49,528 bases of DNA from a virus (IMGVR_UViG_3300019458_000048:1-49528); one strand, 5' to 3'; shown: positions 4,258 through 43,739, counted from the first letter of the stretch. Made by a program: numbers and translations. The notes: generated by a model not told the origin, from the sequence alone.

Positions 4258-5313
4258 TCAGTATTCGAGCGACAGAACCGCGTGGGCGTTCCGCTTGCCG
4301 GTCGTCAGCGCCGCCTTGCTCGTCAGAGCGAAGTAGTGGACGTAACGATCGTACACGCGCGGGGGTCGCCGCGAGACCATCCAGTGGCCCGAGATCGGCC
4401 GCAGCTTCAAGAACTTCGTGTTCAGGAAGTAGCAGCGCTTCGCCCAGGGCACTTCCGGCGAATCCGCAGTGTCGAGGACATCGAACACCGGGTCCCACAC
4501 CAGTTCGACGCCCTTGAAGAAGGCTGCCGAAGTGGATGCGTCGATGGAGACGCCGCCCTTTTCAAGGCCCTTCACGCCGTTGATCTGGCGGTTGACCGTC
4601 AGCGCAGCCGCAGCGCGGTATGCGTCGAGGAACTCGCCACCGACGAGAATGAAGTTCGGAGCAGTGCCGCCGAAGCGGATGCACTCACGCCAGGCGATCT
4701 CCATGCGATCGACGAGTTCCGCAACCGGGATGCCCAGATCGGCATAGTTGCGCCAGTACGGATTCGTCGCCTGGTTGATCGTGCCGACCACAGACGAAAT
4801 CTGCGGGTCCAACTGCACCAGGTGGTCCAGTCCTGCGATGTCGTCCTCGTCGGCCGTGCCGTCGCGATGCAGCATCAGGTCGAAGTTTTCCTCGAAGCCG
4901 AGCTTGAGGGTTTCCATGTTCTCGGTGAACAGGTTCGTGAGCGCGACCTTCTCGCTCGCCGTCGGCGAAGCGTTCCGGTCATCGACCATCGTGATCCCGT
5001 TCTGGACGAGTTCATCTTCGTCGAGACCGAAGCCGTCGTGGAACGCGCCGTAGGCGTACTTCGCCTGGTCGATCGTGCGCTTCCGGTTGTACGTCACCTG
5101 GCCTGCGCCAAAGTACGACTGGAAGTTCGAGTCATTCGACGTGCGAAGCTGCTCGACGACGTACTGCAAGCCGCCCACATAGGGCTGCTTCTCGGAAACC
5201 AGCTTCTTGATGAGCGGGCGTTCGGTGTTGATCTGGTCGATCGGCGTGTTCTTCAGGAAGAAGTCGATCGCCAGCTTGCCACCGTAGGCAAGTTGTTCGG
5301 CATTGAAAGGCAT
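4258..5313 (-). CDS. Major capsid protein
   Basis: A protein of 351 aa, the size of podophage HK97-fold capsid proteins. It starts MPFNAEQLAYGGKLA. The first 100 residues are helical, and a long middle section has the alpha/beta mix of an HK97 A/P domain (FILVGGEFLDAYRAAAA). It ends with hydrophobic strands. It has its own 160-bp leader with a candidate promoter and is followed by a UUCG hairpin, both suited to the most abundant virion protein. The scaffold gene is 4 kb upstream instead of adjacent; the gap holds the enzyme cassette 5474-8946 and the small genes 8969-9321. The family call rests on size, composition and context. Confidence 0.8.
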   Translation of the reverse strand: MPFNAEQLAYGGKLAIDFFLKNTPIDQINTERPLIKKLVSEKQPYVGGLQYVVEQLRTSNDSNFQSYFGAGQVTYNRKRTIDQAKYAYGAFHDGFGLDEDELVQNGITMVDDRNASPTASEKVALTNLFTENMETLKLGFEENFDLMLHRDGTADEDDIAGLDHLVQLDPQISSVVGTINQATNPYWRNYADLGIPVAELVDRMEIAWRECIRFGGTAPNFILVGGEFLDAYRAAAALTVNRQINGVKGLEKGGVSIDASTSAAFFKGVELVWDPVFDVLDTADSPEVPWAKRCYFLNTKFLKLRPISGHWMVSRRPPRVYDRYVHYFALTSKAALTTGKRNAHAVLSLEY

Positions 5314-5448: not shown

Positions 5449-5477
5449 CGATTACATAACCTTCCCCTGGCTGTCAA
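5449..5477 (-). promoter_or_regulatory. Candidate sigma70 promoter for the capsid gene
   Basis: On the minus strand there is a perfect -35, TTGACA, at 5477-5472. It overlaps the stop codon of the upstream gene. A weak -10 (TAATCG, with TATGTAAT around it) follows 17 bases later. The transcript would start about 130 bases before the capsid ATG. That leader contains small inverted repeats such as CCCCGCAAGGGG. The -10 is poor, so the site could need an activator. Confidence 0.45.
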
Positions 5478-6298
5478 GCGCGGGGCTCGGCCAGCCCTCG
5501 CGCGCACCACAAGGCCGCCTCTGCGGGGCTGCACGCCACGATTGCGCCAGCCGGGATCTCTGTAGCCTTGCCTGAGTCACGGAATGCCTTGAGCACCCGC
5601 ACCCGCTGTGTCGGCATCTTCTCATAGGCGAGAAATACCGCAGGCATGACTTCGCCGGTGAAGGTCTCGGCAGGATTGTACTTGCCGAAGGTCTCGGCAA
5701 CCTGGCCTGACAACGCGCGAATTCGCACCTGGCATCGGAACCGCTCAGCGAAGCGCCGGAAGCGATACTGCCAGTAGCCGGGGTTCCTGCCCGCGCTGAC
5801 ATTCGGGCCGTCGCTATGGAAGTACGTCGGGCCCTGAAAACAATCGAAGCCGACGCCGATCACTGGCGCACCGCCCATCAGTACGCCAACCGCGAGTGCG
5901 TGCTGCCCGCTATTGCCCTGAAAAGGCCACGACGCACAGCGGTAGTCGGCCCAATACTGAAGGCTGATGATAGGCACACCGAAAACCCGCATCTGCGGCT
6001 CCATCAAGGGAAATGGTCCTGCGCGCGGGTTGCGCGGGCGCGGAGGGCACTCGGCATTGTCCTTCGTGAAGATGAAGCTCGGCCGCGCCTCTGGTAGTTT
6101 AAACGCATGGCCGTTCGCCGAAATCTGTACCATCGACTGCCAGCCGGAAATCTGCGACAGGTCCGTGAGCACGCTCGGGCCACCGCCGATTACTAGGATC
6201 GGCTGCCCGGCGTAGGCGTTGTAGAGTTCGGAGACGCACCGCTTCAGCGGTAGTGCTGCAAGATCCACGGTGACTGTTCCTGTGCGCTCGGATCCCAT
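5474..6298 (-). CDS. MptE/DUF115-like protein of the head-operon enzyme cassette
   Basis: A protein of 274 aa. Near residue 35 it has LVIGGGPSV, a glycine-rich nucleotide-binding turn, followed by a predicted Rossmann-like half; this is the pattern of the MptE-like (DUF115) / glycan-transferase superfamily. Members make or transfer nucleotide-activated groups, including sugars, in surface-glycan and flagellin modification. The last of five cassette genes, it overlaps the glycosyltransferase gene by 55 bp. A later GTG inside the overlap is a possible alternative start. The substrate is unknown. An N-terminal motif match alone does not prove activity. Confidence 0.6.
   Translation of the reverse strand: MGSERTGTVTVDLAALPLKRCVSELYNAYAGQPILVIGGGPSVLTDLSQISGWQSMVQISANGHAFKLPEARPSFIFTKDNAECPPRPRNPRAGPFPLMEPQMRVFGVPIISLQYWADYRCASWPFQGNSGQHALAVGVLMGGAPVIGVGFDCFQGPTYFHSDGPNVSAGRNPGYWQYRFRRFAERFRCQVRIRALSGQVAETFGKYNPAETFTGEVMPAVFLAYEKMPTQRVRVLKAFRDSGKATEIPAGAIVACSPAEAALWCARGLAEPRA
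6097..6104. repeat. GTTTAAAC copy 1
   Basis: One of seven exact copies of this 8-bp palindrome. It lies inside the MptE-like gene, where it reads TTT AAA (Phe-Lys). Confidence 0.9.
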
Positions 6299-7134
6299 GC
6301 TTTCGGCTCGCCGTAGAAGAAAACCATGCGCGCATCCGGCGGCAAGTTGCCTGCACCATGCGGACGCACCGGCGGCCCTTCCTTCCCGGCCGCTGCAAGC
6401 GCAGCCGCGCGAGCTTGACGCGCCTCCTGTTGCCGTCGCAAGAGGGGATTCATTCCGAGAAAATCCGGCCGATTGCTGCGTGGCGGCACTATGGGGATTA
6501 TGCGCGGAGGTCTGCCGAGCCTGCGCCTTGGTGGTTTCACGCCGATCTCATCCTGCCAGCCGTAGATGCCGTCCGCAGCCGTCCACACCGGCGCATCTGG
6601 CAGTTTGTACTCGAACCATGCCTGATCGCTGCCTTTCAGCCCGGCTTCGTGTGTCAAGCGGGGTGAGCGGAGCGGATCGAAGTCCGTGAATAGCTGCGGC
6701 GTCGCACCGACACGGCCACCAAAGAGCGAGCCGCAGAAACGGCCGCGAATTTTCCACACGATGAAGTCGCGCCAATGCTGAATGAATTTCGTCACGTCGC
6801 CGGTGATGACGACATCCAGGTCGATGCTCAGGAAATACTCTTGTAGGCCGTAAGGATTGCTCGGATCGAACAATGTGAGGCGCGGGTAGCAGTTCGGTCG
6901 CGTAAGGCTAGTCGGGTTTCGCAGTCCACGAAAAGCCGGCAGGATAGGGCGCGTGAACACGTCCGACATCAGCCCCTTCTTGTCGTCGGTAATGCACACA
7001 AACTCGAACGGCACGTCAGGGCCGACATTACGTGCGAGCCCGAGGAATGTCTTGTTCACCATCGTCGCCGTGAACCGCGTGCGGTAGCCGGGAATGTTGT
7101 ACTTGAAACAGACGACGGAAACACGAGCGATCAT
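6244..7134 (-). CDS. Glycosyltransferase, GT-A type with DxD motif
   Basis: A protein of 296 aa, starting at the ATG that overlaps the methyltransferase stop (ATGA). It opens with a strand-turn (ARVSVVCFKYNIPGY). Near residue 115 it has FLSIDLDVVITGD, where DLD is the DxD that binds the nucleotide-sugar metal ion, with the hydrophobic strand before it typical of GT-A folds (GT8-like). The later SDQAWFEY and DGIYGW segments resemble acceptor-side motifs of phage and capsule transferases. The C-terminal 90 residues are Pro/Arg-rich and probably a separate extension. Donor sugar and acceptor are unknown. Confidence 0.65.
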   Translation of the reverse strand: MIARVSVVCFKYNIPGYRTRFTATMVNKTFLGLARNVGPDVPFEFVCITDDKKGLMSDVFTRPILPAFRGLRNPTSLTRPNCYPRLTLFDPSNPYGLQEYFLSIDLDVVITGDVTKFIQHWRDFIVWKIRGRFCGSLFGGRVGATPQLFTDFDPLRSPRLTHEAGLKGSDQAWFEYKLPDAPVWTAADGIYGWQDEIGVKPPRRRLGRPPRIIPIVPPRSNRPDFLGMNPLLRRQQEARQARAAALAAAGKEGPPVRPHGAGNLPPDARMVFFYGEPKAWDPSAQEQSPWILQHYR

Positions 7135-7742
7135 CGCTGCACCAGGAGTCCAGAAGTTTGCGTGATCCACTGGAAGCGCACGTCCTGACGCTCATCGAGA
7201 AAGCGCGCGACTGCGCGCGCCGGGCCGTAAAAGCGGTCGAAGCCTGGCTTCGGCTCGAAGTCGAACGGCTGCACGTCGTCGAGAAAGATCAGTCCGCCGG
7301 GGCGCAGCTTATTGAGTGCTGCGCGAATTTCGTCATACACGCGGAAATCTTCGTGCCAGCCGTCGATGCTTACCAGATCGAAACTGCTGTGCGCGCCGTG
7401 CAGATAGTCGAGCGAGTCGCAAACGTAGTACTCGATGCACTGCACGTCGGCGGCGCGCCACAGCGCCGGGGGGTCGTCGTGCTGCTGAACGTCCATGGTG
7501 ACGACGCGGCCACCCTGCCCGACGGCAAGCGCGAAATTGAGTGCCGAGTAGCCGGTATAGGTGCCGATGTCGAGGACGTGCTTGAAGTGGCACGCACGCA
7601 CTAAGTTGAACAAGATCTCCCGCTGATGCAATGACATGCAGCACGGAGCTTCAAGTGCGCCGACGCGCTCCATGACGGCCAGCGCCGCTTTGAATTCAGC
7701 AGCCGGGAACTGTATGTCCGGCACACGTTCGCGCAAATTCAT
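7131..7742 (-). CDS. SAM-dependent O-methyltransferase (class I)
   Basis: A protein of 203 aa; the ATG at 7742 overlaps the preceding stop. Motif I, VLDIGTYTGYSAL, and the acidic end of the next strand (VVTMD) bind S-adenosylmethionine. DLVSIDGWHEDFRVYDEI followed by LRPGGLIFLDDV matches the caffeoyl-CoA O-methyltransferase-like/TylF-like group, which methylates small molecules or sugars. Such enzymes are often next to glycosyltransferases in glycan modification clusters. It probably acts on the product of the neighbouring transferases; that link is inference. Confidence 0.75.
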   Translation of the reverse strand: MNLRERVPDIQFPAAEFKAALAVMERVGALEAPCCMSLHQREILFNLVRACHFKHVLDIGTYTGYSALNFALAVGQGGRVVTMDVQQHDDPPALWRAADVQCIEYYVCDSLDYLHGAHSSFDLVSIDGWHEDFRVYDEIRAALNKLRPGGLIFLDDVQPFDFEPKPGFDRFYGPARAVARFLDERQDVRFQWITQTSGLLVQR

Positions 7743-8029
7743 TCGTAGCCGAGGGTGCGACGCGCCTCCCACTCCGACGTAGCGGTCTGATAGCAGTGCA
7801 TGTGCTCGCCCCGGTGCATAACGTCAATCACCCATTCCAGCACGCGCCAAAAACGCCCGCCGCGCACTTTGGGCTCGTTTGGCTCCCACATGGCGAGATC
7901 GTAGGCTTTACGTCCGGCAAGGCCGCTGATCGTTTCGCGCGGTTTCACACCGGCCCAACAAAAAATAGTCGCGCAACAGAACATATTGAAGGCCAGACGG
8001 AACGGCTTTGTTTTTTGCTTCAGGTCCAT
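7739..8029 (-). CDS. Unrecognised small protein of the enzyme cassette
   Basis: A protein of 96 aa, start at the ATG at 8029 (GGGA upstream, 10-bp overlap with the ATP-grasp gene). One hydrophobic stretch near residues 11-27 (LAFNMFCCATIFCW) could be a membrane-contacting helix. The rest is basic/aromatic with several Trp residues. No family recognised. Its fixed place between an ATP-grasp enzyme and a methyltransferase makes it a candidate substrate or carrier for them. Confidence 0.65.
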   Translation of the reverse strand: MDLKQKTKPFRLAFNMFCCATIFCWAGVKPRETISGLAGRKAYDLAMWEPNEPKVRGGRFWRVLEWVIDVMHRGEHMHCYQTATSEWEARRTLGYE

Positions 8030-8946
8030 GTCCCGGCCTCGTATTCGTCGAGCATCAGATCCCAAATGTCGAGCCAGTTGTACGGCCTGTCAAGCAGGTC
8101 GCCGAAGAACGGGGCCTCGTTGCACCGGCCGGGCGATGGCCACGGCCACGCAAGACTCGTTTCGATCAGCTTCCATGCACGTCCCTGCCGAAGCACGTCG
8201 ATCGCACACCACTTCGTGCCGATCGCCTCGAAAATTCTGTCGGCGAAGAATAGAAGCGATTCGGTTTCGTCGTCAAGCACCATGACGGGCTCGACGTTGC
8301 CCGTTTGCGCCGTGCCTTTCTTCGGATGATTGAACCGTTTGAAAATGGCACGCGCGCGGCCCACGATATTGACCCGCCAAGTGAAGGTGTTCGGGACGTA
8401 CTCTTGCAGAAGAACATAGCCTTGCTGCCTCGATTCCACGTCGTGATCGCCCGCGCCGCCGGCGCTGTGTGTGACACGAATGCCGGTGCCGAAGCACTGG
8501 CCGACGTGGTAGCGCTGCTCGTCTGGTGTTTTCAGGATGCGCACGTTGTTCGAGGACGCACCGACATCAGCCTTGCTGACGAGCCAGCCGTCCCACTGAT
8601 GCACGAATTCGAGCGCCTCGCTCCGGTTCGTGAAGCGGCGCGTCAGCGGCATGTACTGACCCCACCGTGCGAACTGCTCGCTCTTGTTGTCGTAGACTTC
8701 GACTTGCGCGCGGTCCTGCACCATAGTCAGGCGTGCGCGCATTTCCGGATCGTCGAAGTCAATGTTTCGGCGCAGGATGCCGGGCTTCGCGTGCGGTCGA
8801 ATGAATCCGAGACCGGATCGGCCTTGCAATTCATCGAAAGTTCCCAGGGGGATGCGCTTGGCGTCGTACCCGCGGGCGCGCGCGGCGTCGATCATCGGCC
8901 CGTGCCAGACGTGACGTTCGTCCAGCACGGTCAGTTGCTTGTGCAT
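8020..8946 (-). CDS. ATP-grasp-fold ligase-like enzyme
   Basis: A protein of 308 aa. It has the order expected of ATP-grasp enzymes: WLVSKADVGASSNNVRIL (ATP-binding lysine and glycine-rich loop), VLLQEYVPNTFTWRVNIVG (hinge and adenine-binding strand with Glu), then KWCAIDVLR and WKLIETSL (metal-binding Asp/Glu). These enzymes join a carboxylate to an amine or thiol through an acyl phosphate (RimK, peptide ligases). The target is unknown. First gene of the five-gene cassette, 22 bp after the secreted protein gene, with GGAGGGGAC before its ATG. Confidence 0.7.
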   Translation of the reverse strand: MHKQLTVLDERHVWHGPMIDAARARGYDAKRIPLGTFDELQGRSGLGFIRPHAKPGILRRNIDFDDPEMRARLTMVQDRAQVEVYDNKSEQFARWGQYMPLTRRFTNRSEALEFVHQWDGWLVSKADVGASSNNVRILKTPDEQRYHVGQCFGTGIRVTHSAGGAGDHDVESRQQGYVLLQEYVPNTFTWRVNIVGRARAIFKRFNHPKKGTAQTGNVEPVMVLDDETESLLFFADRIFEAIGTKWCAIDVLRQGRAWKLIETSLAWPWPSPGRCNEAPFFGDLLDRPYNWLDIWDLMLDEYEAGTWT

Positions 8947-8968
8947 AGTCCCCTCCTGCGGGATTCTG

Positions 8969-9247
8969 CTACTGATTGATGTTCAGATCGAACGTAATCC
9001 ACACCGGGATTGTGCCTGCAACATCGAGCGCATAGCAACGAATTGCAGTTGCGTTGAATTCACGAACGCAACCATGATTCAAAATTGTAGCTCGCGGCGG
9101 CACGGGCAATGCCACGACTGCGAATTTAGGTGGCCCATCAATTTGCAAATGGATGACGGGAACTAATTCATGGCCGGGCGGCGGCTCAATTGCTCTTGCC
9201 GACATTGACGCCAGCAGCAAGAGCAACATCCAGACCGGGCGCATCAT
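8969..9247 (-). CDS. Small secreted or periplasmic protein
   Basis: A protein of 92 aa with a clear Sec signal peptide: basic MMRP, hydrophobic core WMLLLLLASM, cleavage after SARA near residue 19. The mature 73-residue part is beta-rich, with two Cys residues (HGC and IRCY) that could form a disulphide. The ATG overlaps the stop of the 25-codon gene (ATGATG). A secreted protein inside a head operon suggests a host-envelope role such as superinfection exclusion. Alternatively it belongs to the enzyme cassette that follows. Confidence 0.7.
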   Translation of the reverse strand: MMRPVWMLLLLLASMSARAIEPPPGHELVPVIHLQIDGPPKFAVVALPVPPRATILNHGCVREFNATAIRCYALDVAGTIPVWITFDLNINQ

Positions 9248-9321
9248 GATGCTTCCTCGATGCCGTCATCGATAGCATCCTTGCGCTCTTGCTTCGACAG
9301 CTTAATGTCGTACTGTTTCAT
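9244..9321 (-). CDS. 25-residue protein between scaffold and secreted protein genes
   Basis: The ATG at 9321 overlaps the scaffold stop (ATGA) and the TGA overlaps the next ATG. The reading frame is thus coupled at both ends in the same way as its neighbours, which is the main evidence that it is translated. The product (MKQYDIKLSKQERK, then an acidic end) is charged and helical. Function unknown. Confidence 0.5.
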   Translation of the reverse strand: MKQYDIKLSKQERKDAIDDGIEEAS

Positions 9322-10493
9322 CCGCGTGTTCCCATCTGGATTCCGAGTTCGACCGCCTCCGCCATCGTTTTCGGCGCGGGTGTCGCGCCTCCGGCCGGCT
9401 GGTTCGCGCGCAGCGGCTGCCGTGCCGGCGGCTTGCCTCCGCGCGCGGCCGCGAGCGCACGGCCCGCGTCCGACGGTGACGGCTTGCGCGGCGTCGGCAC
9501 CACAGAGTATAGGCGCTTGAATTCCGGCAGCCATTCTGTCGGCCGGAGCCTGCCGGAACGAATCTGCGGGAGAATCAGCTTGAGAATCAGCGGCCGCTTC
9601 GCCTTGTAGTCCGGGTCGGCCGTCATGAGCCTCGTTTCCTCGGCATTGAGTTCGCTCTGCGCAGCCTGCACCGCGCGCTGGTGCGCGACACGCTGCTCAT
9701 TGATCTGCGTGTTGTGCTTGTCGCGGTTTGACGTGAATTCCTGCGCTGCGCGCTGCGCAGCGAGTTCTTCGGCGCGCTCCGGCGTGATCTTGCCGGCTCT
9801 CAGTTCAGCGGCGATGTCCGGGTAATCCCCGACCATTGACACGCCGGGAAGCGCGACGCCGGCCATACGCGCTAGTGCGATGCGCTCGCCCTCGATGAAT
9901 TCGAGCGCCTTCACGATGTCCTCGCGCCGGCCGCTGTTGACCAGCGACAAGTAGCCTAGCGCCTGCCCGTATTGCTCGGGCGATGCGCCGGTCTCGCGCA
10001 CTCGCTGCACGATCGTGCCGAAACGTGTCTCGGCCTGATCGGCGCGCGTCGTCTGATCCTTGCCGATCTTGATGAGGTCCTGAATGCGCTTCGTCGTGGC
10101 TTCCTTGAGCCCCGCCGGAATCGGATCGTTCAGCGCATCGGGCTGCTTGTCTCCCGGCTTTGCAACCTTGTCACCAGGCTTCGCAGCATCCTTTCCCTTG
10201 TCCTCGCCAGCCTCATCTTCGCCGTCAGTTTTGCCAGCATCCACGTCGCCCGCAGCGGCAGTTTCTCCATCGCCTCCATCTTTGCCATCTGGTGCTCCAT
10301 CCGGTGTGCCACCAGAAAGCGCTGAAATGTCGCGCTGATCGTCGCCCGCATCAGCATCCGTTCCAGCCTCGCTCGAAGGGTCATTGCCTGGTTCCTCCTG
10401 CGCCGTTGGTGCGATGCCTGCATCCGCATTGGCTGCGGCAACGCCGGCGTCGATAGCTTCAGCAAGCGTTGTCGGGGCGGTGGGGGTCGTCAT
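9318..10493 (-). CDS. Scaffolding protein
   Basis: A protein of 391 aa, directly after the portal gene. It is highly charged. Residues 35-130 are acidic and low complexity (Gly, Asp, Ala, Lys) and the C-terminal 100 residues are basic and helical (FKRLYSVVPTPRKP). Scaffolds line the inside of the procapsid and leave or are cut on maturation. A short motif is repeated at the two ends: TLAEAIDAGV near the N-terminus and TMAEAVELGI near the C-terminus. No protease gene is seen nearby. Confidence 0.75.
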   Translation of the reverse strand: MTTPTAPTTLAEAIDAGVAAANADAGIAPTAQEEPGNDPSSEAGTDADAGDDQRDISALSGGTPDGAPDGKDGGDGETAAAGDVDAGKTDGEDEAGEDKGKDAAKPGDKVAKPGDKQPDALNDPIPAGLKEATTKRIQDLIKIGKDQTTRADQAETRFGTIVQRVRETGASPEQYGQALGYLSLVNSGRREDIVKALEFIEGERIALARMAGVALPGVSMVGDYPDIAAELRAGKITPERAEELAAQRAAQEFTSNRDKHNTQINEQRVAHQRAVQAAQSELNAEETRLMTADPDYKAKRPLILKLILPQIRSGRLRPTEWLPEFKRLYSVVPTPRKPSPSDAGRALAAARGGKPPARQPLRANQPAGGATPAPKTMAEAVELGIQMGTRG

Positions 10494-10511: not shown

Positions 10512-12674
10512 TTATGCCGGGGGCGCGATGACCGGCGCTTCAACTGCCGGTGCTGAAAGTTCTGGTGCCACCAAATCTCCAATCGGGGCTTCGGATGATA
10601 CGCCGGGATCTCCTGCGGGTCCACCTGCGGCCGGATCGCCCGGCATTCCGGGCGCACCGGGTGCGCCGACAGCCGGCAATTCCGGCGCGGCCGGGATGAA
10701 GCGCTCTGGATCGCTGTCATCGCCCAGGCGCACAAGCGTCTCGCGGATCAGTTCGCGCAGCGCCAGCGCCAGCGGCAGGTTGCCCTGCTGCTCGGCAAGC
10801 TGAATTTCGACCATCGTCTGCTTCAGCATCGGCATGATCGTGGCCCATGCGTCGCGATCGCCAGCCGCCTTCGGCTTGCCGGTCGTACCTGCCTGGATCG
10901 TGATCTCGACCATCGTGAGCAGATCGTCCACGGCCATGCCGTACGGCCAGAATGCTTTCATGCCGACCATGCGCACGGCGTCGGCGTGCTCCAACCCGCC
11001 TAGCGCCAGTTCGCCCGTGTAGTTCGCCAGATCGGTCAGCACACCTTCGAGCATGTCGCGGTCGGCAGTCGTGCGCGAGGCGAATCCGGTCTGCTGGATC
11101 TCCGCTTCGGTCGCCGTCTTTTCCGTCGTCACGGCAGACTGCAACGCTTCCTGCACCCCGCTGATGCGCTCCATGTCCTGCAACACGCTGGTCGTGTCGA
11201 ACAAGCGCATATCGGCCACGGCAACCGGCTTCGCTGCAAACAGCTTGGTGATGTCGGCCGCCGGATCGGTCGGATTGATGCCGATGAATTCCTGCTGGAC
11301 GCTCTGCTGAATCTTTTTCGCTTCCTCCGGCGGCACGCCGCTCGCATTGAAAAGCGTCGCTGGCACTGCACGATCGCGCGTGAGGCGCGTGCTCGACCGC
11401 GACGAGTTGTACTCGTCCATGAGCTTGAACAGCCGCCAGGTCAGCGACTGCGGATGCCGCGAGCCATCGACCGGGAACAGCACCAGGAGGAAGTACGGAT
11501 AGAAGCGCGTCGTCGGGTAGTCGGGCTGGAAAGGCTCTACGGCCCATCGCTTGCACCCCTCGACCATCGTCTCGATGAATCCGGTCACGCGATTCCAGCG
11601 CTCGACGATCTTGTAGAACTCGATCTGGTTTTCATCGACCGGGCCGGTGCCGCCGGCGCTCTTGTCACTGACGAACTGATCCGCCTGCGCCGCCTGCATG
11701 TCGTTCGACATGCCCGACATGCCCGGCAGGCCAGTGAGCTTCGTGATATCGTCCAGCGGTTGAAGATCGCGATTGTTGCGCTGGTAGTAGCAGGTCGCAC
11801 CGACGAGATCCTGCGCCGTCAGACGCGGACACATGGCGAGCGTGTCGTCCTTGGTGCGGTAGATCGCGTTCGCGATCCAGTTGGCGCTCTTGTAGTCGGC
11901 CAGGTCGGTCACGTCGAGCGAAACCTGAATGTCCTCCGCGCGCACGAAGTCGAAAACCATCGCCTTGCGCAGCGCGACCTCCATCTTCGCGCTCAGCGAT
12001 TCCTCAAGCTCGCGCATCTGCAAAAGCTGCTCGTCGATTTCCTCGGGCGTCTGCGCCTCGCCGGCGTAGAGCGGGTCATCGGACAGCAACTGCTCGCGCT
12101 CGGCTTCGAGTTGCGCGATGTTGTTGCGCTGATCGTTCAACTGGGTCTGCATCTGCGGCATGTTGGTGCCCTTGCAAAGCAAGGTCGCCTTCATCCAGCC
12201 GACGCCGACCGACAGCGTGGAGCGGACCATCTTCTGCGCCGCGCCTTTCAGCGTCGAAGTCTGCGAGCGCCACAGCGTCGAGATCATCAGTTCCATCGTG
12301 CGCGCGAATTCTTCCTGTTGCTTGGTTCCCCTGTTGTCCACCTGCGGCGCTTTCTTCACGCTCACGTCAGGGTTACGCGCGTACAGGAACGAAACCAGGA
12401 TGTCGATGAAGCTGCCGATCAGGTTCGCGCTCACGGCCCAGTTGATGTGGGCCGTGCCTGCGGCGTAGCGGCGGTCGATCGCGTACTGTGCGCGGGCGGC
12501 CTTGTCGAACGATCGGGCGTCGTTGTACGCCTTCATGATCGCTTCGATCTGGTTCGCTTCCTGTTGCCGGGCCTCCGCCTCGGCCTCCCCCTGCGCTTCG
12601 ACGTTCGCGGCCTGGACGCCCGCATCGACTGCGCCGAGCATCCCTGGATTCGGTTCGTTACCGGAGTGCAGCAT
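10512..12674 (-). CDS. Portal protein
   Basis: A protein of 720 aa, the size of podophage portals (P22 gp1 is 725). A long helical N-terminus with a repeated Ala/Glu/Gln segment comes first, then a core with DILVSFLYARNPDV and the wing region. A coiled stretch (QLNDQRNNIAQLEAEREQLL, residues about 175-200) and TGLPGMSGMSND follow, then a Pro/Gly/Ala-rich tail. It forms the dodecameric DNA gate and terminase dock. Gene order TerS, TerL, portal, scaffold, capsid is standard apart from the inserted genes. GGAG lies eight bases before the ATG; the start overlaps the HNH gene by 17 bp. Confidence 0.85.
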   Translation of the reverse strand: MLHSGNEPNPGMLGAVDAGVQAANVEAQGEAEAEARQQEANQIEAIMKAYNDARSFDKAARAQYAIDRRYAAGTAHINWAVSANLIGSFIDILVSFLYARNPDVSVKKAPQVDNRGTKQQEEFARTMELMISTLWRSQTSTLKGAAQKMVRSTLSVGVGWMKATLLCKGTNMPQMQTQLNDQRNNIAQLEAEREQLLSDDPLYAGEAQTPEEIDEQLLQMRELEESLSAKMEVALRKAMVFDFVRAEDIQVSLDVTDLADYKSANWIANAIYRTKDDTLAMCPRLTAQDLVGATCYYQRNNRDLQPLDDITKLTGLPGMSGMSNDMQAAQADQFVSDKSAGGTGPVDENQIEFYKIVERWNRVTGFIETMVEGCKRWAVEPFQPDYPTTRFYPYFLLVLFPVDGSRHPQSLTWRLFKLMDEYNSSRSSTRLTRDRAVPATLFNASGVPPEEAKKIQQSVQQEFIGINPTDPAADITKLFAAKPVAVADMRLFDTTSVLQDMERISGVQEALQSAVTTEKTATEAEIQQTGFASRTTADRDMLEGVLTDLANYTGELALGGLEHADAVRMVGMKAFWPYGMAVDDLLTMVEITIQAGTTGKPKAAGDRDAWATIMPMLKQTMVEIQLAEQQGNLPLALALRELIRETLVRLGDDSDPERFIPAAPELPAVGAPGAPGMPGDPAAGGPAGDPGVSSEAPIGDLVAPELSAPAVEAPVIAPPA

Positions 12675-13164
12675 TTAGGTGACTCCATGAGCGCCCGGCA
12701 TGAATGTCGCACACCGATGTCAGATTAATTTTGAACCACTTTGCGGCATCCGTTCCTCGAACACCGCAGGCGCGCATATCGCGAATTCGCTCTACGTCAC
12801 CGACAGTCAGTTTGCGCAATCCGTGAAGTGATTTATCTTTCATGTTGCGACTTCGCGAAGCCCAAGAGAGATTCTCCACGCAATTGTTAGTCGGGTTTGG
12901 ATCTGGAAAGTGCCGCGTATCTGCGCCTTGCGGACGAGGTCCCACAAAGGCTTCCAATACCAATTGGTGAACATAGCGTAACACTAGGTGGTTGTCTTTG
13001 CACAGTCCCACATGCAGGTGTCCAGAGCGCGAACCCTTAAACGGCTTCAATATGCGGCCTGCCGCCCATTTGCCTCGCGCTGTCAAGCTTCGCACGCACC
13101 CCTGATCCGAGACTTCGTACAGCCCCTCGTACCCGACTACAGGCTTCCAATTTTCTGTGGTCAT
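12658..13164 (-). CDS. Free-standing HNH homing endonuclease (NUMOD4-HNH)
   Basis: A protein of 168 aa. It begins WKPVVGYEGLYEVSDQGCVRSL, the NUMOD4 DNA-recognition module. The beta-beta-alpha HNH core follows (VHQLVLEAFVGPRP, then RHFPDPNPTNN and VENLSWAS), with an extra residue in the His-Asp turn. A helical C-terminus (VGDVERIRDMRACGV) resembles the helix-turn-helix used for site contact. It is wedged between terminase and portal, overlapping both, so it has captured the coupling signals. It probably cleaves an uninfected homologue of this region and spreads by repair. Confidence 0.85.
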   Translation of the reverse strand: MTTENWKPVVGYEGLYEVSDQGCVRSLTARGKWAAGRILKPFKGSRSGHLHVGLCKDNHLVLRYVHQLVLEAFVGPRPQGADTRHFPDPNPTNNCVENLSWASRSRNMKDKSLHGLRKLTVGDVERIRDMRACGVRGTDAAKWFKINLTSVCDIHAGRSWSHLNAALR

Positions 13165-15809
13165 GTGTAGCGGGGCTTCATTTCAGCCTGCTCCGTGTGC
13201 TCGACCCAAGCCCCGGTGAACGGGATCAATTCCTTTCGCTCCGGTGCGCGCGGGCGGTGGGGAGAAATCATGCTGTCGATTCCTCGCCCGAGCAAGCCGC
13301 AAACGTCGCAGGCGTCGTCGTTCTGCACGGCGGGAAAAGCGCAAAGCTGATCCACCAGCCGGGTCGCCCAGGCCCGCTTCAGGGGCATGTACACCTGCCC
13401 GCCGGCGACGCGCGCCTGGAACGAGGCCAGCTTCAGGGTCTTGTTCTTGATCGAAGGCTTCGACTCAAGCTCGACGTAACACGGCGGTTGTGACGCGCGC
13501 ATCGCGGCCGTGAAGTGCGGGCGAATGGCGTTGTCGATCGGGCCGCCCTCGTCCCACCAGCGCCACGGATGCCAGCGCAGGATCAGCGCGATCGCGTTCG
13601 CGATGCTCACGTCCGTCGTTTTTTGCCCGTACCACCAGTCGCGGAACCAGAAATTCATGTCCGTGTCGAGACCGATGATCCCGTGCTCGCTGAAATCCGA
13701 CTTGTCCTCTTTCGTCGCAATGTCGGTCGCGCCGTAGATCGTGAGCAAGTCGGGACAGCCGCCGGGCTTGCCCGGCTCGATGTCCGGGTCGTACCACTTG
13801 AACCACTCGCGCCGGATTTCCAGGCCCTCGCCGAGCGTCGGGCGCTGCTGGAACAACGCGGCCCAGGTGCGCGCCGTGCGCGGATTGGTTTCCCACTTCG
13901 CCCAATGGGTCCCGTCGGTCGGATCTTTGGTCTGTGAAAACCACTCCGGCCAGATGTAGTGCCCGATCGGCCGCCCGAGCGGGTCGTCGATGCGCTCGCA
14001 TTTCGCGGGGAAGTTGATGACACGCCACACCTGGCCGTCGCGACACAACACGTCCCCGCTCTGGCCGTCGTAATCCTCGGGCAAAATGCGCCCGGCCAGG
14101 TCGTCGGGGCTCCATCGTGTTTGAATTAGGCATATCCACCCGCCCGGCATCAGTCGCGTCGTCACCGCGTCCGCATACTCGTCGTAAATCTTCTCGCGAA
14201 TGGTCTCCGAGTCCGCCTCCTCGCGGTTCTTCACCGGGTCGTCGATCACGACGCCGTGCGCGCGCGAGCCGGTGATGCCCGACTGCAAGCCCGCGGCCAT
14301 GAACTCCGACCCGTTCGAGAGCGCCCACTGGTCGATCGCCTTCTGGTCGCCGGCCAGGAACGGCCGGTCGTCCCAAATCGAGATCTCCTTGTCCTGCCGC
14401 GCCAACTGCCGCGCGCGGCGTGATTGCTTCGCCGCGATCTTCATGTTGTAGCTGCCGAGGATGATCCGGTAGTTCGGCGTTTTCTTCATCTTCCACACCG
14501 GCCCGACGACGGATGCGTAGGTGCTATTGTGCGTCGGCGTCATGGATCGCCCGCACAGAAACAAATGGCTTGGAGAATCCACCTCAATGCACACGGTATC
14601 TGCGACGCCGGCCGGCGTGGCTTCCAGATAGGTGTTCGGCGTTCGGTACTGATCCCGAGTCCAGCGGCGCTTGCGCGCCAGCCTCGCTGAATCCTTCAGG
14701 TAGAAACTGACCCTGTACACCGGCCCGCAATCCTTGCCGTTGACTCGCGCGATGCTCTCCGACCATCCCGCCTTCACGCCGAGTGAGCGCACTAGCTCTC
14801 GTACTCCGAGCGCAAGTTCAATCCTGGTGCTGCAAAACGTCGTGCAGCCCCGCTTGCGGCACACCGTTCCGTCCGTGTCGATCAAACCTTGCAAAAGCGC
14901 CATGCGCTGTGCACGCGACGCGCGCAGATATTGCGGCGGGATATGCTTGCGCCCGTCTTCCAGGTGATCTTTTATCAACCCCAGGGAGACGAAATTTGCG
15001 CGTTGTCCAATGACCTGAAACGTAATTGGGATCGTAGTGTCCCGCGTCTCGATGCCAATGCCGGTCAGATACTCCCGGTAATGCTTCTGGTCCTCTAATG
15101 CTGCGGTAATACGCAAGCCGCTACTGTGCCCGTCTCCGAGCCATAGCCCGAGCAGGTAGGGGTCAATGGGCAGCTTGACTTTCGGCAGGTCCAGCGCACC
15201 GGCCCTGTCCACCAGCGAGCGCTTACCCCGTGGAAGGGCCAAAGTGGCTGTGTCGATGATGCTGCGACGTTGCGACTTTCTGCAAAGTTGTACTCGCCAC
15301 TCATGATCGCGGTCGGCGATGATTTCGTCGCCGCAGTCGGTACGCACCACATAAACGGGGCGCTGCCGGTGAACTGGACTAACCCACGTCACCGAGCACA
15401 CTTTTCCCCGCTCGTCGAAGATCTGATCGCCGACCCGCAACATGCCCATCTTCTTCCAGCCGTCTGGTGTCGGGATCGGCGTATCCAGTGCCAGCGCCTT
15501 CGCCGATCCCGGCGGCGCAAGAATAATCAGCCGCCCGCCGTAGGTCTCCATGCAGCGCTGCACTTCGGACATGATGATCCGGTGGTGCAGCGCCACGTCC
15601 GACTCGACCGGCGTGAACACGTCGCAATCTTCATCCGTCTCGCTGAGCGGCGCGCCCGGAATGTCGATCGCCCGCGCGTACTCGACCAGCGAATTGCGCG
15701 CACGCACGCGACGAATCAATTCACGCGCTGCGGCTTCGCGGGTTACAGCCTGCGGCGCGTCATCTTCCAGCAACGGATCGTCGGGCAATCCCGGTAGCGG
15801 CGTCGTCAC
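13161..15809 (-). CDS. Terminase large subunit with a class 3 intein
   Basis: A precursor of 882 aa; after removal of a 324-residue intein the terminase is about 558 aa, normal for the family. The N-terminal ATPase has Walker A split by the intein (PPGSAK at 99-104 continues as STYASV at 429) and a Walker B VVIDDPVKNREE. The C-terminal RNase H-like nuclease begins YGATDIATKEDKSDF and continues through GIIGLDTD. It cuts and pumps DNA through the portal. Splicing is needed to make a working P-loop, so packaging depends on it. TerL genes of this type usually go with headful packaging, in line with the circular joint; that is inference. Confidence 0.9.
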   Translation of the reverse strand: MTTPLPGLPDDPLLEDDAPQAVTREAAARELIRRVRARNSLVEYARAIDIPGAPLSETDEDCDVFTPVESDVALHHRIIMSEVQRCMETYGGRLIILAPPGSAKALALDTPIPTPDGWKKMGMLRVGDQIFDERGKVCSVTWVSPVHRQRPVYVVRTDCGDEIIADRDHEWRVQLCRKSQRRSIIDTATLALPRGKRSLVDRAGALDLPKVKLPIDPYLLGLWLGDGHSSGLRITAALEDQKHYREYLTGIGIETRDTTIPITFQVIGQRANFVSLGLIKDHLEDGRKHIPPQYLRASRAQRMALLQGLIDTDGTVCRKRGCTTFCSTRIELALGVRELVRSLGVKAGWSESIARVNGKDCGPVYRVSFYLKDSARLARKRRWTRDQYRTPNTYLEATPAGVADTVCIEVDSPSHLFLCGRSMTPTHNSTYASVVGPVWKMKKTPNYRIILGSYNMKIAAKQSRRARQLARQDKEISIWDDRPFLAGDQKAIDQWALSNGSEFMAAGLQSGITGSRAHGVVIDDPVKNREEADSETIREKIYDEYADAVTTRLMPGGWICLIQTRWSPDDLAGRILPEDYDGQSGDVLCRDGQVWRVINFPAKCERIDDPLGRPIGHYIWPEWFSQTKDPTDGTHWAKWETNPRTARTWAALFQQRPTLGEGLEIRREWFKWYDPDIEPGKPGGCPDLLTIYGATDIATKEDKSDFSEHGIIGLDTDMNFWFRDWWYGQKTTDVSIANAIALILRWHPWRWWDEGGPIDNAIRPHFTAAMRASQPPCYVELESKPSIKNKTLKLASFQARVAGGQVYMPLKRAWATRLVDQLCAFPAVQNDDACDVCGLLGRGIDSMISPHRPRAPERKELIPFTGAWVEHTEQAEMKPRYT
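14526..15497 (-). mobile_element. Class 3 intein with LAGLIDADG homing endonuclease in terL
   Basis: Residues 105-428 of the precursor. Residue 1 is Ala, not Cys/Ser. The class 3 marker set is complete: Trp171 two residues after block B His169 (RDHEW), Cys407 in block F (VCIEVDSPSHLFL), and Thr426 just before the terminal His-Asn (TPTHN). Ser429 is the +1 residue. In class 3 inteins the block F Cys makes the first attack. The endonuclease has both LAGLIDADG helices, LLGLWLGDG (219-227) and LLQGLIDTDG (305-314). The insertion is between Lys and Ser of the Walker A motif. Confidence 0.88.
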
Positions 15810-29704: not shown

Positions 29705-30169
29705 ATGCGTATTACAGGCACAGCGGCATTTTTGCTTGGCTTCATCATCGTTTGCGGCATCGCGTACTGCACCGAGGCTCGCGGCGACGAGATCCGCATG
29801 AACGTGGGCGCGACCGTCGTGCGCAATGAAGCACCCTCGGTCGGCTTCTCGATCGTATGGGAGGAGGCAGCGCCCGGTGACGCATTCATAGAGTGCGGGG
29901 CACAACTTGTCGCGACATCGAACTACTCCGGCCAAGGTGCGGGCTACTGCATGCTTAAAGACGGCTTCGGCCGGCTGGAACTGGGCATGGGCCTTGCAGC
30001 ACTCATGAAAGAGACCGACAAAAACAGCACCAAGCTCAACTTCGCGCTCGGTCTCGGCTGGTGGTTCACCGATCGCCTCGGTCTAGGCGCGCTGCACTTC
30101 TCCAACGGCAGCATCAAGTATCCCAACAAGGGCTGGAACATTCTGGCAGTCGTAGGGCAGTTCAAATAA
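29705..30169 (+). CDS. PagL-like lipid A deacylase / acyloxyacyl hydrolase family protein
   Basis: A protein of 154 aa, the usual size for PagL. The N-terminus has a signal-type hydrophobic stretch (GTAAFLLGFIIVCGIAYC, cleavage near 27). Beta-barrel strands alternate aromatic and polar residues (LGLGWWFTDRLGLGALH). The catalytic signature HFSNGS (His131, Ser133) with PNKGWN follows. In PagL the third residue is Glu; the aligned position here is Asn145, as in several family branches. It should sit in the outer membrane and remove an acyl chain from lipid A, changing the receptor or the permeability of the host surface. Confidence 0.7.
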   Translation: MRITGTAAFLLGFIIVCGIAYCTEARGDEIRMNVGATVVRNEAPSVGFSIVWEEAAPGDAFIECGAQLVATSNYSGQGAGYCMLKDGFGRLELGMGLAALMKETDKNSTKLNFALGLGWWFTDRLGLGALHFSNGSIKYPNKGWNILAVVGQFK

Positions 30170-40892: not shown

Positions 40893-43739
40893 TTACGCAG
40901 TGGGCAAGAAGCCGGCCGCCCGCGCATGGGCTCGAATTCGAGCCTGGGATAGTGCCGAGTTGTACAGCGCGACGTGCGCCATGCCGACCGGGTTAGTCGT
41001 GCCTCCGACGACGTTTCCGTGCAAGTCAGTCGTAGCGCTCGTTCCCCCCGTCGGCTCGTTGCTGTAACTAATGATGTCCATGATCTGCCCGTCGCGGTAG
41101 ATCGTCACAGTATTGGCCGTTCCATTTTTTACGAGTGCCAAGTGCATCGGCATTCCGAGCGGCTGCGCCGTCCCAACAACCGAAACTTGCGATTCGTTGG
41201 TTCCTGCTCCAAATTCCCAAGTATTATTGATGAGCGCCCCAGTGTTGACCGCAGCAAGAATTTGGTAGTTAGCAGCTTCCGTCTCTCCGCTCGCGCCGAT
41301 GGCAAACAGTGTGCTCTCGTTCGTCGTGAAGCTGCGAAACACTGCAATGCACTCAAACGTCCAATCGGCACTGGCCGGGATGCTCAAGCCAGACTGGTCC
41401 GTGCGAGTCGCATGATCGCCGGAGGCATCAAAATACACGAACCGCGTCGTTTCCCGAGGCACCCACGCCCCGTACTGATAAGAGGGCGAGCCGACCGCCG
41501 TAAGAGTGCGACTGTTGCCAGACGAATCGGCAAAATTCCCGCTGGCTTCATCCAACTTCCAATATGCTACCGGATTATCTGCAAGAATTTCGCTCGCCAG
41601 CGTGGCCGTGTCGATGCTGACAATCGGGTTGGCCGGGTCCGAATCATCAACAGCAATCCCGTCTCCGGGGACAATTGTATCGACCGTGCCGCCACCGGCG
41701 CCCGGCAAGTTGTCCAGCAACACTTTCTTGAGTGTGGCGGCCGAGGCGTCATACGTCATGACGTAATCGGTGGAGCCCACCGGAGTAGCGTCGGCAGTCA
41801 GACCATTAATATCCACAGAGACGATTGGCTCTGTAGGATCAGTCGCATCCACCGCAATGCCCGTGCCGGCCACAATTGCGTTTACGCTGCCGCCACTGCT
41901 GCCCGCGTCCTTGAGTGTGCGCCACCGGGCAGATGTCGGATCATAGCGCAAGAATTGCGATTCCTCAGTGCCGAGGACAAGATCGGCCCCGTCATCAAAC
42001 AAGAAGCGATTGGCTGCACTTGACCCTGTATTTTCGTGTTGCAAGACAATCGGGAAGCTGCCGACATTCGTGATGATGAGCCAGCGGCCCTCCGCACCCG
42101 TTGCCAAACCCGTGACATTCCGCGAAGCGTCAGACGACACGCGCAGAAAGCCTGCTGTCGCAAGATCCGCCGGCGAGTAGTCATTCTGAGTCGCCGTAAT
42201 CTGCGCCGGGGTCAGAGTCGTGAAACCTTGTACCGGCTGCCAAGTCGGGGCTGCACTACTACCGCTCGACAAGAGGGCGTGACCGGCCGTGCCGTAATTA
42301 GCTCCTCCGAGGCCCCATGCGCCATTATCCTCAATGCGAAACCGTTCGGTGAGCGTCGTCGAGCCGGCAGGCGTCGTCTGCACAAGCATGCGCGTCGGCT
42401 GCGAGCTTACGGTCCAGCCGGCGACCGCCTGAAATGTCACCGCACCGCCGACCGCGAACGCCGTGCCGTTGTACCCGGCACCCTCTAGGCGCGCCAAATT
42501 ATCGGCACTCGACAGGGCTGCCGGTGCAGCTAGCGTGCCAGTCGAGCCGTAGGCTACGCCACGGATGTTTGGCGAATTGGTCCGAATAATCTTTAACGAC
42601 CGCTCGACGAGAACTTGTGGCGTGTCCGTAGACGGGCTCAGAAAAACTGAGTGGACAAAAGCCGTCTCGGTATCTGAAAGATATGCGCGACGTGCTCCGG
42701 CCGCCGTAAACCCGATTGTATTGGAGTTGTTCGCCGTCAGGAAAAGGCCAGTATTGGTGTCGCCACTAAAGCTGATCGACGGCCCCGCTGCGGACCCGTT
42801 CTCGGCATGAAGTGGGACGCGCAAATCGACAAGACTGGCGGTAATAATCATTCGCACGCCGCCACCCATCGCAAAGCCGATTTGGTCGTTTGCAGGGAAG
42901 TAGATGCCGCAATTATCGTCACCGATATGACTTAGGACCGGCTCTAGAGCTGATCCGCTTGCATAAAGAAACTGGCTCGCGGCACGGGCAATCTTCATCA
43001 TCAAAACGCCCGGCACGCTGCCATGATGTCGGTAGAAGTTCAAGTCACCAGTGCCAACAACCGTCCCGTCATGATGGAAGCGGAAGCCGACAGAAAACGG
43101 AGTGGGCGGATCGCCGCCAGTGCCCGTCTCCCAAAACGCGAGGGTGTTGCCCACGCCGTCAGCGAGTGGATTGGGCCCGGATTCCGTCGTCAATTGAATG
43201 CCGGCGTCGGATGGAAAGTCAGGGTTCGAGACCCAAATTCCGGCATACGAGCGCACAATCAACGGAATGTTTTGCTGCACGCGCGCCGTGTTGATGTCCC
43301 ATCGTGCCGCGCCGGCCGTTGCAAATCCAAAGTTGTCTATGCCGAGTCGATAGATGCCGGTATTCGGATCGGCGATGAACGTGAGCGAGGGAGTTGCCGC
43401 CGAGCCATCGGCGAAACGTGTGATATTTTGGAAGTCCCACTGCCCGGTAATGTCCTCATCCTGCACCCACTGCGTGTACTGTGGGTGATCGTCACCGAGC
43501 TTCAGGCCCTGAAGCAATCGATGGTGCTGCGTGCCGCCGGCAGTGTCCTCCTCGACACCTGGCGGCGACAGCAAGGTGAGCCCGAGCCACTCACGCACCG
43601 TGTTTGGCGTGCCGACCCTCCCATCGGGTGTAAAGACATCCATCCCGAGCGTCGCGCCGCGCGTCGCCGTCGGATCGATGAACACGGTCTTGCCGACCGT
43701 GCCAATCACCGGAATTTTTACTTTGCGGCCTATCGCCAC
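40893..43739 (-). CDS. Tail fibre with C-terminal LamG domain
   Basis: A protein of 948 aa. The N-terminus (GRKVKIPVIGTVGKTVFID) is a virion-attachment type domain. The shaft has repeats of the TPSLTFIADPNTGIYRLG / GPSISFSGDTNTGLFLT form, plus the segment KLGDDHPQYTQ. Residues about 700-948 make a LamG-like fold (VAYWKLDEASGNFADSSG, WTFECIAVFRS, VTIYRDGQI), a sugar- or glycan-binding tip. Gene position after the ejection proteins is that of T7 gp17. A remnant of another fibre end lies just downstream. Confidence 0.8.
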   Translation of the reverse strand: MAIGRKVKIPVIGTVGKTVFIDPTATRGATLGMDVFTPDGRVGTPNTVREWLGLTLLSPPGVEEDTAGGTQHHRLLQGLKLGDDHPQYTQWVQDEDITGQWDFQNITRFADGSAATPSLTFIADPNTGIYRLGIDNFGFATAGAARWDINTARVQQNIPLIVRSYAGIWVSNPDFPSDAGIQLTTESGPNPLADGVGNTLAFWETGTGGDPPTPFSVGFRFHHDGTVVGTGDLNFYRHHGSVPGVLMMKIARAASQFLYASGSALEPVLSHIGDDNCGIYFPANDQIGFAMGGGVRMIITASLVDLRVPLHAENGSAAGPSISFSGDTNTGLFLTANNSNTIGFTAAGARRAYLSDTETAFVHSVFLSPSTDTPQVLVERSLKIIRTNSPNIRGVAYGSTGTLAAPAALSSADNLARLEGAGYNGTAFAVGGAVTFQAVAGWTVSSQPTRMLVQTTPAGSTTLTERFRIEDNGAWGLGGANYGTAGHALLSSGSSAAPTWQPVQGFTTLTPAQITATQNDYSPADLATAGFLRVSSDASRNVTGLATGAEGRWLIITNVGSFPIVLQHENTGSSAANRFLFDDGADLVLGTEESQFLRYDPTSARWRTLKDAGSSGGSVNAIVAGTGIAVDATDPTEPIVSVDINGLTADATPVGSTDYVMTYDASAATLKKVLLDNLPGAGGGTVDTIVPGDGIAVDDSDPANPIVSIDTATLASEILADNPVAYWKLDEASGNFADSSGNSRTLTAVGSPSYQYGAWVPRETTRFVYFDASGDHATRTDQSGLSIPASADWTFECIAVFRSFTTNESTLFAIGASGETEAANYQILAAVNTGALINNTWEFGAGTNESQVSVVGTAQPLGMPMHLALVKNGTANTVTIYRDGQIMDIISYSNEPTGGTSATTDLHGNVVGGTTNPVGMAHVALYNSALSQARIRAHARAAGFLPTA

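Follow-up and report, generated by a model that had tools for sequence, protein, structure and literature searches.

The viral record IMGVR_UViG_3300019458_000048 from IMG/VR (49,528 bases of an uncultured phage, in the following referred to as the window) carries a cassette of enzyme genes between the genes for its scaffold-like protein and its major capsid protein. We found that the core of this cassette, consisting of genes for an ATP-grasp ligase, a GT8-like glycosyltransferase, a GT42-like (GT42/Maf/MptE-like) protein and a predicted membrane protein of 96 amino acids (aa), recurs as a module in phages of at least three unrelated backbones, each time in the late region. Such a location among the structural genes of unrelated phages suggests a late chemical decoration of the particles or of the host surface. 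Our tentative reading, to which we assign a probability of about 0.45, is that of a mobile late phage-borne glycoconjugate module, with a virion protein as a more likely target than the host envelope.

Recurrence of the module in phage late regions

A search with the ATP-grasp alignment retrieved 44 loci, about 30 distinct ones lying off the backbone of the window. An ATP-grasp gene with sufficient flanking sequence is available from 23 IMG/VR loci. All of them contain the 96-aa family and the GT8-like gene, 22 contain the GT42-like gene, and the O-methyltransferase gene found in the window occurs in only 3. The preliminary description of this DNA had treated the ligase, methyltransferase, glycosyltransferase and MptE-like genes together with a small secreted protein as one functional set and had proposed to look for it in other phages. 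The set is indeed no single occurrence, and its core genes stay together (22–23 of 23 loci); the methyltransferase belongs to it as an optional member.

At least ten of the carriers share HK97-like siphovirus genes (terminase, prohead protease, capsid, portal, collagen-like protein and head-tail adaptor), after which follow the module and then tail terminator and tape measure. A third backbone is represented by locus L099, where PhoH, portal (phrog_145), scaffold (phrog_206) and capsid (phrog_247) lie beside the module, with the module upstream of the PhoH and portal genes. The window-type carriers are split over two places in a tree built from 40 ATP-grasp proteins, and a single origin was recovered in 0 of 200 bootstrap trees. 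Since a single window-type clade is still compatible with the approximately unbiased test (p 0.06), the case for exchange between backbones depends on this tree and its bootstraps. Among 84,980 bacterial and archaeal genomes (GTDB) no member of the ATP-grasp family was found, and neither the ATP-grasp protein nor the 96-aa protein (three queries each) gave a match in 50,697 phage records; since these searches used short patterns or single-sequence tblastn, distant relatives may have been missed.

The HK97-like carriers encode, just before the module, the collagen-like protein with G-X-Y repeats and a portal-type C-terminal part (6039–6947 in L118), which is a possible glycosylation acceptor. 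Some HK97-like copies of the module also contain a glycerophosphodiester phosphodiesterase-like gene (PF03009, E 2e-21; 10242–10901 in L118). Long frames in L005 and L007 resembling a fusion of the GT8-like and MptE-like genes are overlapping genes instead.

Within the clade of the window we analyzed the slot between scaffold and capsid genes, starting from 71 related loci found by a capsid search. The 53 distinct layouts of this slot comprise 9 with the module, 7 with the GT42-like but no ATP-grasp gene, 19 with another set comprising a GT2 enzyme and/or an additional glycosyltransferase (GT)-like protein, 2 with the 96-aa family alone and 16 with none of these. Genes for a sugar C-methyltransferase, a histidine phosphatase and a PIG-L-like protein were also found there. 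The slot is a hot spot in this clade. The cultured relatives Mae-Yong1326-1, RHph_N65 and Mx8 show no such insertion, and capsid relatives in genomes and prophages (Stenotrophomonas, Achromobacter, Polynucleobacter and others) lack the module, with the exception of one Rhizorhabdus bin (L168) that carries the GT42-like gene. Since these relatives lack the module apart from this one GT42-like gene and the ATP-grasp family was not found in the GTDB genomes, lytic late use fits better than lysogenic conversion.

In the window the whole cassette lies on the minus strand (Table 1), with start codons refined from the sequence. The ATP-grasp gene is preceded by AGGAGG, the 96-aa gene starts with ATG and overlaps the ATP-grasp stop by 10 nt, and the methyltransferase and glycosyltransferase genes each overlap the preceding gene by 4 nt (ATGA). 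If its first ATG is used, the GT42-like gene overlaps the GT8-like gene by 55 nt. The tight coupling of genes between scaffold and capsid that had been described before is therefore confirmed by overlapping open reading frames (ORFs), and all ORFs are present at the positions given there. The GC content of the module genes ranges between 0.58 and 0.63 compared to 0.61 for the window, and the 92-aa gene at the upstream end has a lower value of 0.52. Ratios of nonsynonymous to synonymous substitution rates (dN/dS) between the window and L002 are 0.16 for the ATP-grasp gene, 0.11 for the portal gene and 0.22 for the 92-aa gene. Motif residues of the module enzymes are invariant across 11–16 relatives and the gene order recurs. 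Decay, or loss of the active sites, had been named as an objection to a functional set; the low dN/dS, indicating purifying selection, and the invariant motifs rule out decay of the module.

Table 1. Genes of the cassette and its flanks in the window
Feature	Position	Strand	Basis or remark
92-aa protein, N-terminal hydrophobic signal-like segment; accessory, outside the conserved core	8969–9247	-	relatives only in L002, L003
ATP-grasp ligase, RimK/LysX/ArgX-type fold, 308 aa; core	8020–8946	-	structural model and invariant residues
96-aa protein, one predicted membrane helix, phrog_3342-like; core	7739–8029	-	alignment and hydropathy
Class I O-methyltransferase (catechol/caffeoyl-CoA type), 203 aa; optional	7131–7742	-	Pfam and PDB matches
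GT8-like glycosyltransferase (GT-A, DxD), 296 aa; core	6244–7134	-	phrog_1962 and motifs
GT42/Maf/MptE-like protein, 274 aa; core, start uncertain	5474–6298	-	model and profiles
Scaffold-like protein, upstream flank	9318–10493	-	position between portal and capsid, kept in relatives
Portal, flank	10512–12674		
Major capsid protein, downstream flank	4258–5313	-	phrog_9953 major head protein, E 5e-26

Enzymes and small proteins of the module

Neither Pfam nor PHROG has a family that matches the ATP-grasp protein, and its assignment comes from structure, with the ATP-grasp fold spanning the whole protein. Its AlphaFold model (predicted local distance difference test (pLDDT) 85, predicted template modeling score (pTM) 0.86) matched ArgX in Foldseek with 1.7e-12, and VIA-align gave Z scores of 21.9 for RimK, 21.8 for ArgX and 21.3 for LysX over 262–265 aligned residues. 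Residues K88, K125, R191, R204, D250 and E262 are invariant in all 11 members compared; judged by motif, K88 and K125 are the putative ATP-binding lysines and D250 and E262 putative metal ligands. The protein thus shares with the RimK/LysX/ArgX amino-acid ligases the fold (Z about 21–22) and the invariant ATP and metal residues, but identity amounts to 12–18% only, and members of the family have so far been seen in phages alone. It also lacks the asparagine of the terminal E-x-N motif, a metal ligand, as position 264 is serine in 10 of 11 members and threonine in one. Because of this replacement we refer to the protein as RimK/LysX-like in fold and not as RimK or LysX. The profile of the family also weakly matches 5ig8, a ligase of the macrocyclase type.

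The 96-aa family contains a conserved RET(I/V)SG motif and reaches Kyte-Doolittle maxima of 1.3–2.45 in 9 members; the protein of the window matches phrog_3342 (E 7e-5). With the ligase at the center, the cassette might serve peptide or protein modification as known from LysW/ArgX or graspetides, with the 96-aa protein as a substrate that is also decorated by the glycosyltransferases and the methyltransferase. The nearest solved folds (ArgX-LysW, RimK) act on protein or peptide carriers, which together with the weak 5ig8 match is in favor of this explanation, and the 96-aa gene follows directly after the ligase gene and accompanies it in all full loci. However, the family has a membrane helix, lacks an acidic carrier-like C-terminus and occurs without ligase or glycosyltransferases in L022 (7815–8123), L042 (6717–7025) and three partial loci, and we regard a role as peptide substrate as improbable. 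In the slots of L022 and L042 a gene for an M78-like peptidase adjoins the lone 96-aa family gene.

The preliminary description had named a secreted small protein and had suggested a 96-aa protein between the enzymes as a substrate. The product of the 96-aa ORF is a predicted membrane protein, and the secreted one corresponds to the separate 92-aa ORF upstream of the ligase gene. The latter has no Pfam or PHROG family, and its relatives are confined to L002 (48%) and L003 (38%), so that it does not belong to the conserved set. As a general substrate it was rejected since most module carriers do not encode it.

The glycosyltransferase matches phrog_1962 (2.4e-9), and a profile built from 14 relatives leads to glycogenins (glycogenin-2, E 0.022). 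PF01501 was matched by one of the 14 members only, with E 0.02. Residues D117, D119, G180, D182 and Q183 (DxD and G-SDQ) are invariant in all 14, and an F-G-W motif is conserved among them as well. Of the C-terminal metal-binding motif HxxGxxKPW of GT8 enzymes, the glycine and tryptophan are retained in 13 members, but the histidine position is occupied by histidine in only 2. We call the enzyme GT8-like because of the glycogenin matches together with the invariant DxD and G-SDQ residues. The O-methyltransferase is recognized by PF13578 (8e-15) and PF01596 (4e-14; 52.9 bits compared to a gathering cut-off of 22) as well as by the catechol-type PDB structure 2avd (2e-14).

For the GT42-like protein a model with pLDDT 86.5 was obtained. 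Structurally it comes closest to Maf (Z 11.9 over 185 residues), followed by MptE/HPPK (10.6) and the sialyltransferases Cst-I/II (about 10, with 10.4 for Cst-I). The profile of the family finds Cst-II (E 0.0012), PF01973 is matched by 16 of 16 members with E values of up to 0.1 (best 3e-10), and the protein also matches phrog_4603, annotated as alpha-2,3-sialyltransferase (2e-4). It resembles the Maf flagellin glycosyltransferase and Cst-I/II (GT42) in the fold, the GGGPS nucleotide-site motif and an SG...GxD motif. Histidines are conserved at residues 64 (16 of 16) and 161 (14 of 16) of the window protein, but neither can clearly be equated with the catalytic base of Cst-II, and for this reason we do not claim sialyltransferase activity. 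The company of glycosyltransferase genes and the closest structural match, Maf, make a functional 6-hydroxymethylpterin kinase, that is MptE proper, unlikely. Profiles, motifs and model thus bear out the O-methyltransferase, DxD glycosyltransferase and MptE/DUF115-like protein that had been assigned before, as the predicted structure and the retained catalytic residues do for the ATP-grasp ligase.

The C-terminal 50 residues or so of the GT42-like protein form a beta domain (residues 225–274; window 5477–5626, minus strand) that aligned with GINS B domains (Z 5.1) and weakly with the C-terminal domain of lambda gpFI (Z 4.2). A gpFI-like domain for docking to the capsid was kept as a lead only, as this structural hint is weak and the sequence profile lends it no support. 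The same likeness would fit an explanation in which the GT42-like protein, and perhaps other products of the cassette, act without catalysis in the structure or assembly of neck or head. In line with this, the homologue ORF010 of Pseudomonas phage PAJU2 is labeled as a structural protein, and in many relatives the slot holds the GT42-like gene by itself. In contrast, the structural relatives Mae-Yong1326-1 and RHph_N65 manage without the module, the DxD, ATP-grasp and S-adenosylmethionine (SAM) motifs are kept, and the sequence profile shows no link to gpFI or to D3 orf6.5. We consider a purely structural role very improbable.

Virion protein or host envelope as target

We infer the reactions of the glycoconjugate module as one pathway in the following order on one acceptor, most likely a co-made virion protein since the genes are located inside structural operons of unrelated phages. 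The GT8-like enzyme would transfer a sugar from a host nucleotide-sugar to the acceptor, and the GT42/Maf-like enzyme would add another sugar, which may be nonulosonic, or use it as a cap. The RimK/LysX-like ligase would join an amino acid to a carboxylate of the glycan or of the acceptor protein, and the methyltransferase, where present, would cap the product. The 96-aa membrane protein may act as partner, anchor or acceptor. In favor of this reading, glycosyltransferase genes lie next to structural genes and are conserved with them in several backbones, and elsewhere in the clade the slot is occupied by genes of GT2 type, for other GT-like proteins or for a sugar C-methyltransferase. The GT42-like homologue of PAJU2 bears the structural label mentioned above, and phage D3 has GT42-like and methyltransferase genes in a comparable position. 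Further support comes from mycobacteriophages, whose capsids are glycosylated by phage enzymes (PMC12363180, PMC11256854), and from the apparent lack of the module in prophages.

Several observations weigh against it. For a reaction on virions in the cytoplasm a membrane protein would hardly be expected, yet every complete module encodes one. Among the window genes examined, none for the synthesis of sugar nucleotides was noted. A caveat on the structural label of PAJU2 ORF010 is that it is wording of the record. P1-like phages encode a GT42-like protein in the pmg region, and from this match PmgO of P1 is probably a member of the family. The pmgO gene is non-essential in P1 (PMC10695390).

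The membrane protein, present in 23 of 23 modules, would fit a late change of the host envelope. It would anchor the enzymes at the inner membrane for an alteration of lipopolysaccharide or a lipid-linked glycan, which would keep progeny from readsorbing to debris or shut out rival phages. Pathways for surface glycans commonly use enzymes of the GT42, GT8 and O-methyltransferase types, and glycosyltransferase clusters of jumbo phages have been interpreted as surface modification (PMC7824862). In its replication half, the phage genome of the window encodes a PagL-like lipid A 3-O-deacylase (29705–30169, plus strand; PF09411, E 1.6e-7), but a search of 10 related phage records yielded no such gene. 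Speaking against an envelope target, the module sits in head operons and not in early or moron regions, and it was not found in the prophages or bacterial genomes searched. Altogether an envelope target is conceivable but on the unlikely side. DNA hypermodification was considered and set aside: among the window genes scanned only an ordinary DNA methyltransferase was noted, in a scan that was not aimed at hypermodification enzymes.

A more specific form of the glycoconjugate reading is a horizontally mobile, phage-only glycopeptide-type system in which the RimK-like ligase aminoacylates a glycan built by the GT8-like and Maf-like enzymes on capsid or neck proteins. We regard this form as speculative and rather unlikely; we know of no virus for which such an amino-acylated glycan coat has been described. 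If a glycoconjugate module of this kind is at work, glycosylation of virions or late surfaces by phages would extend far beyond the few cases known from mycobacteriophages, and it would come as a transferable module with an amino-acid-type ligase seemingly absent from bacteria. The cultured relatives D3 and PAJU2 carry part of the set and make the idea testable. The module amounts to a short list of genes for expression, with mass spectrometry as a clear readout. The recurring slot between scaffold and capsid is also a place to look for other modification genes.

Further genes of the window and comparison with known systems

Two further genes were noticed in the window. The terminase large subunit (13161–15809, minus strand) contains an insertion of approximately 320 aa inside the Walker A motif (APPGSAK / ALALDTPI ... 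THN / STYAS). It is an intein that starts with alanine and contains a LAGLIDADG domain, and it is absent from L005 and L007. A 948-aa protein (40893–43739, minus strand) with a C-terminal Laminin_G_3/concanavalin-like domain is probably a tail fibre or spike.

The preliminary description knew of no phage system with this set of genes at this place, and in the open-licence literature we likewise found no description of it, but partial precedents exist. In the mycobacteriophages Che8, Corndog and Myrna virion proteins are reported to be glycosylated by phage enzymes (Freeman et al. 2023, as cited in PMC12363180 and PMC11256854). Phage-encoded glycosyltransferases and virion proteins as their target are what these phages share with our reading of the module; a set of ATP-grasp and GT42-like genes is not described in these papers. 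The Che8 relative Maravista differs from the window in having its glycosylation genes near the 3' end of the genome.

In the Pseudomonas phages D3 and PAJU2 a GT42-like protein, a further enzyme-like gene and a methyltransferase are encoded among the head-tail genes (orf7/ORF010 to orf13/ORF012). Our GT42-like profile (k3) matches their proteins with E values of 1e-43 to 2e-57. Both phages differ from the window in lacking the ATP-grasp gene, the 96-aa family and the GT8-like gene, and their methyltransferase belongs to another family (phrog_6564). Tetraselmis viridis virus S20 encodes two GT42-like proteins, a methyltransferase and a GT8-like protein (37% identical to that of the window) among its head genes, but on another phage backbone and without an ATP-grasp gene. 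Since the ATP-grasp gene was not found in D3, PAJU2, S20 or the P1-like phages, the new element in comparison to these known relatives is the module centered on the ATP-grasp ligase.

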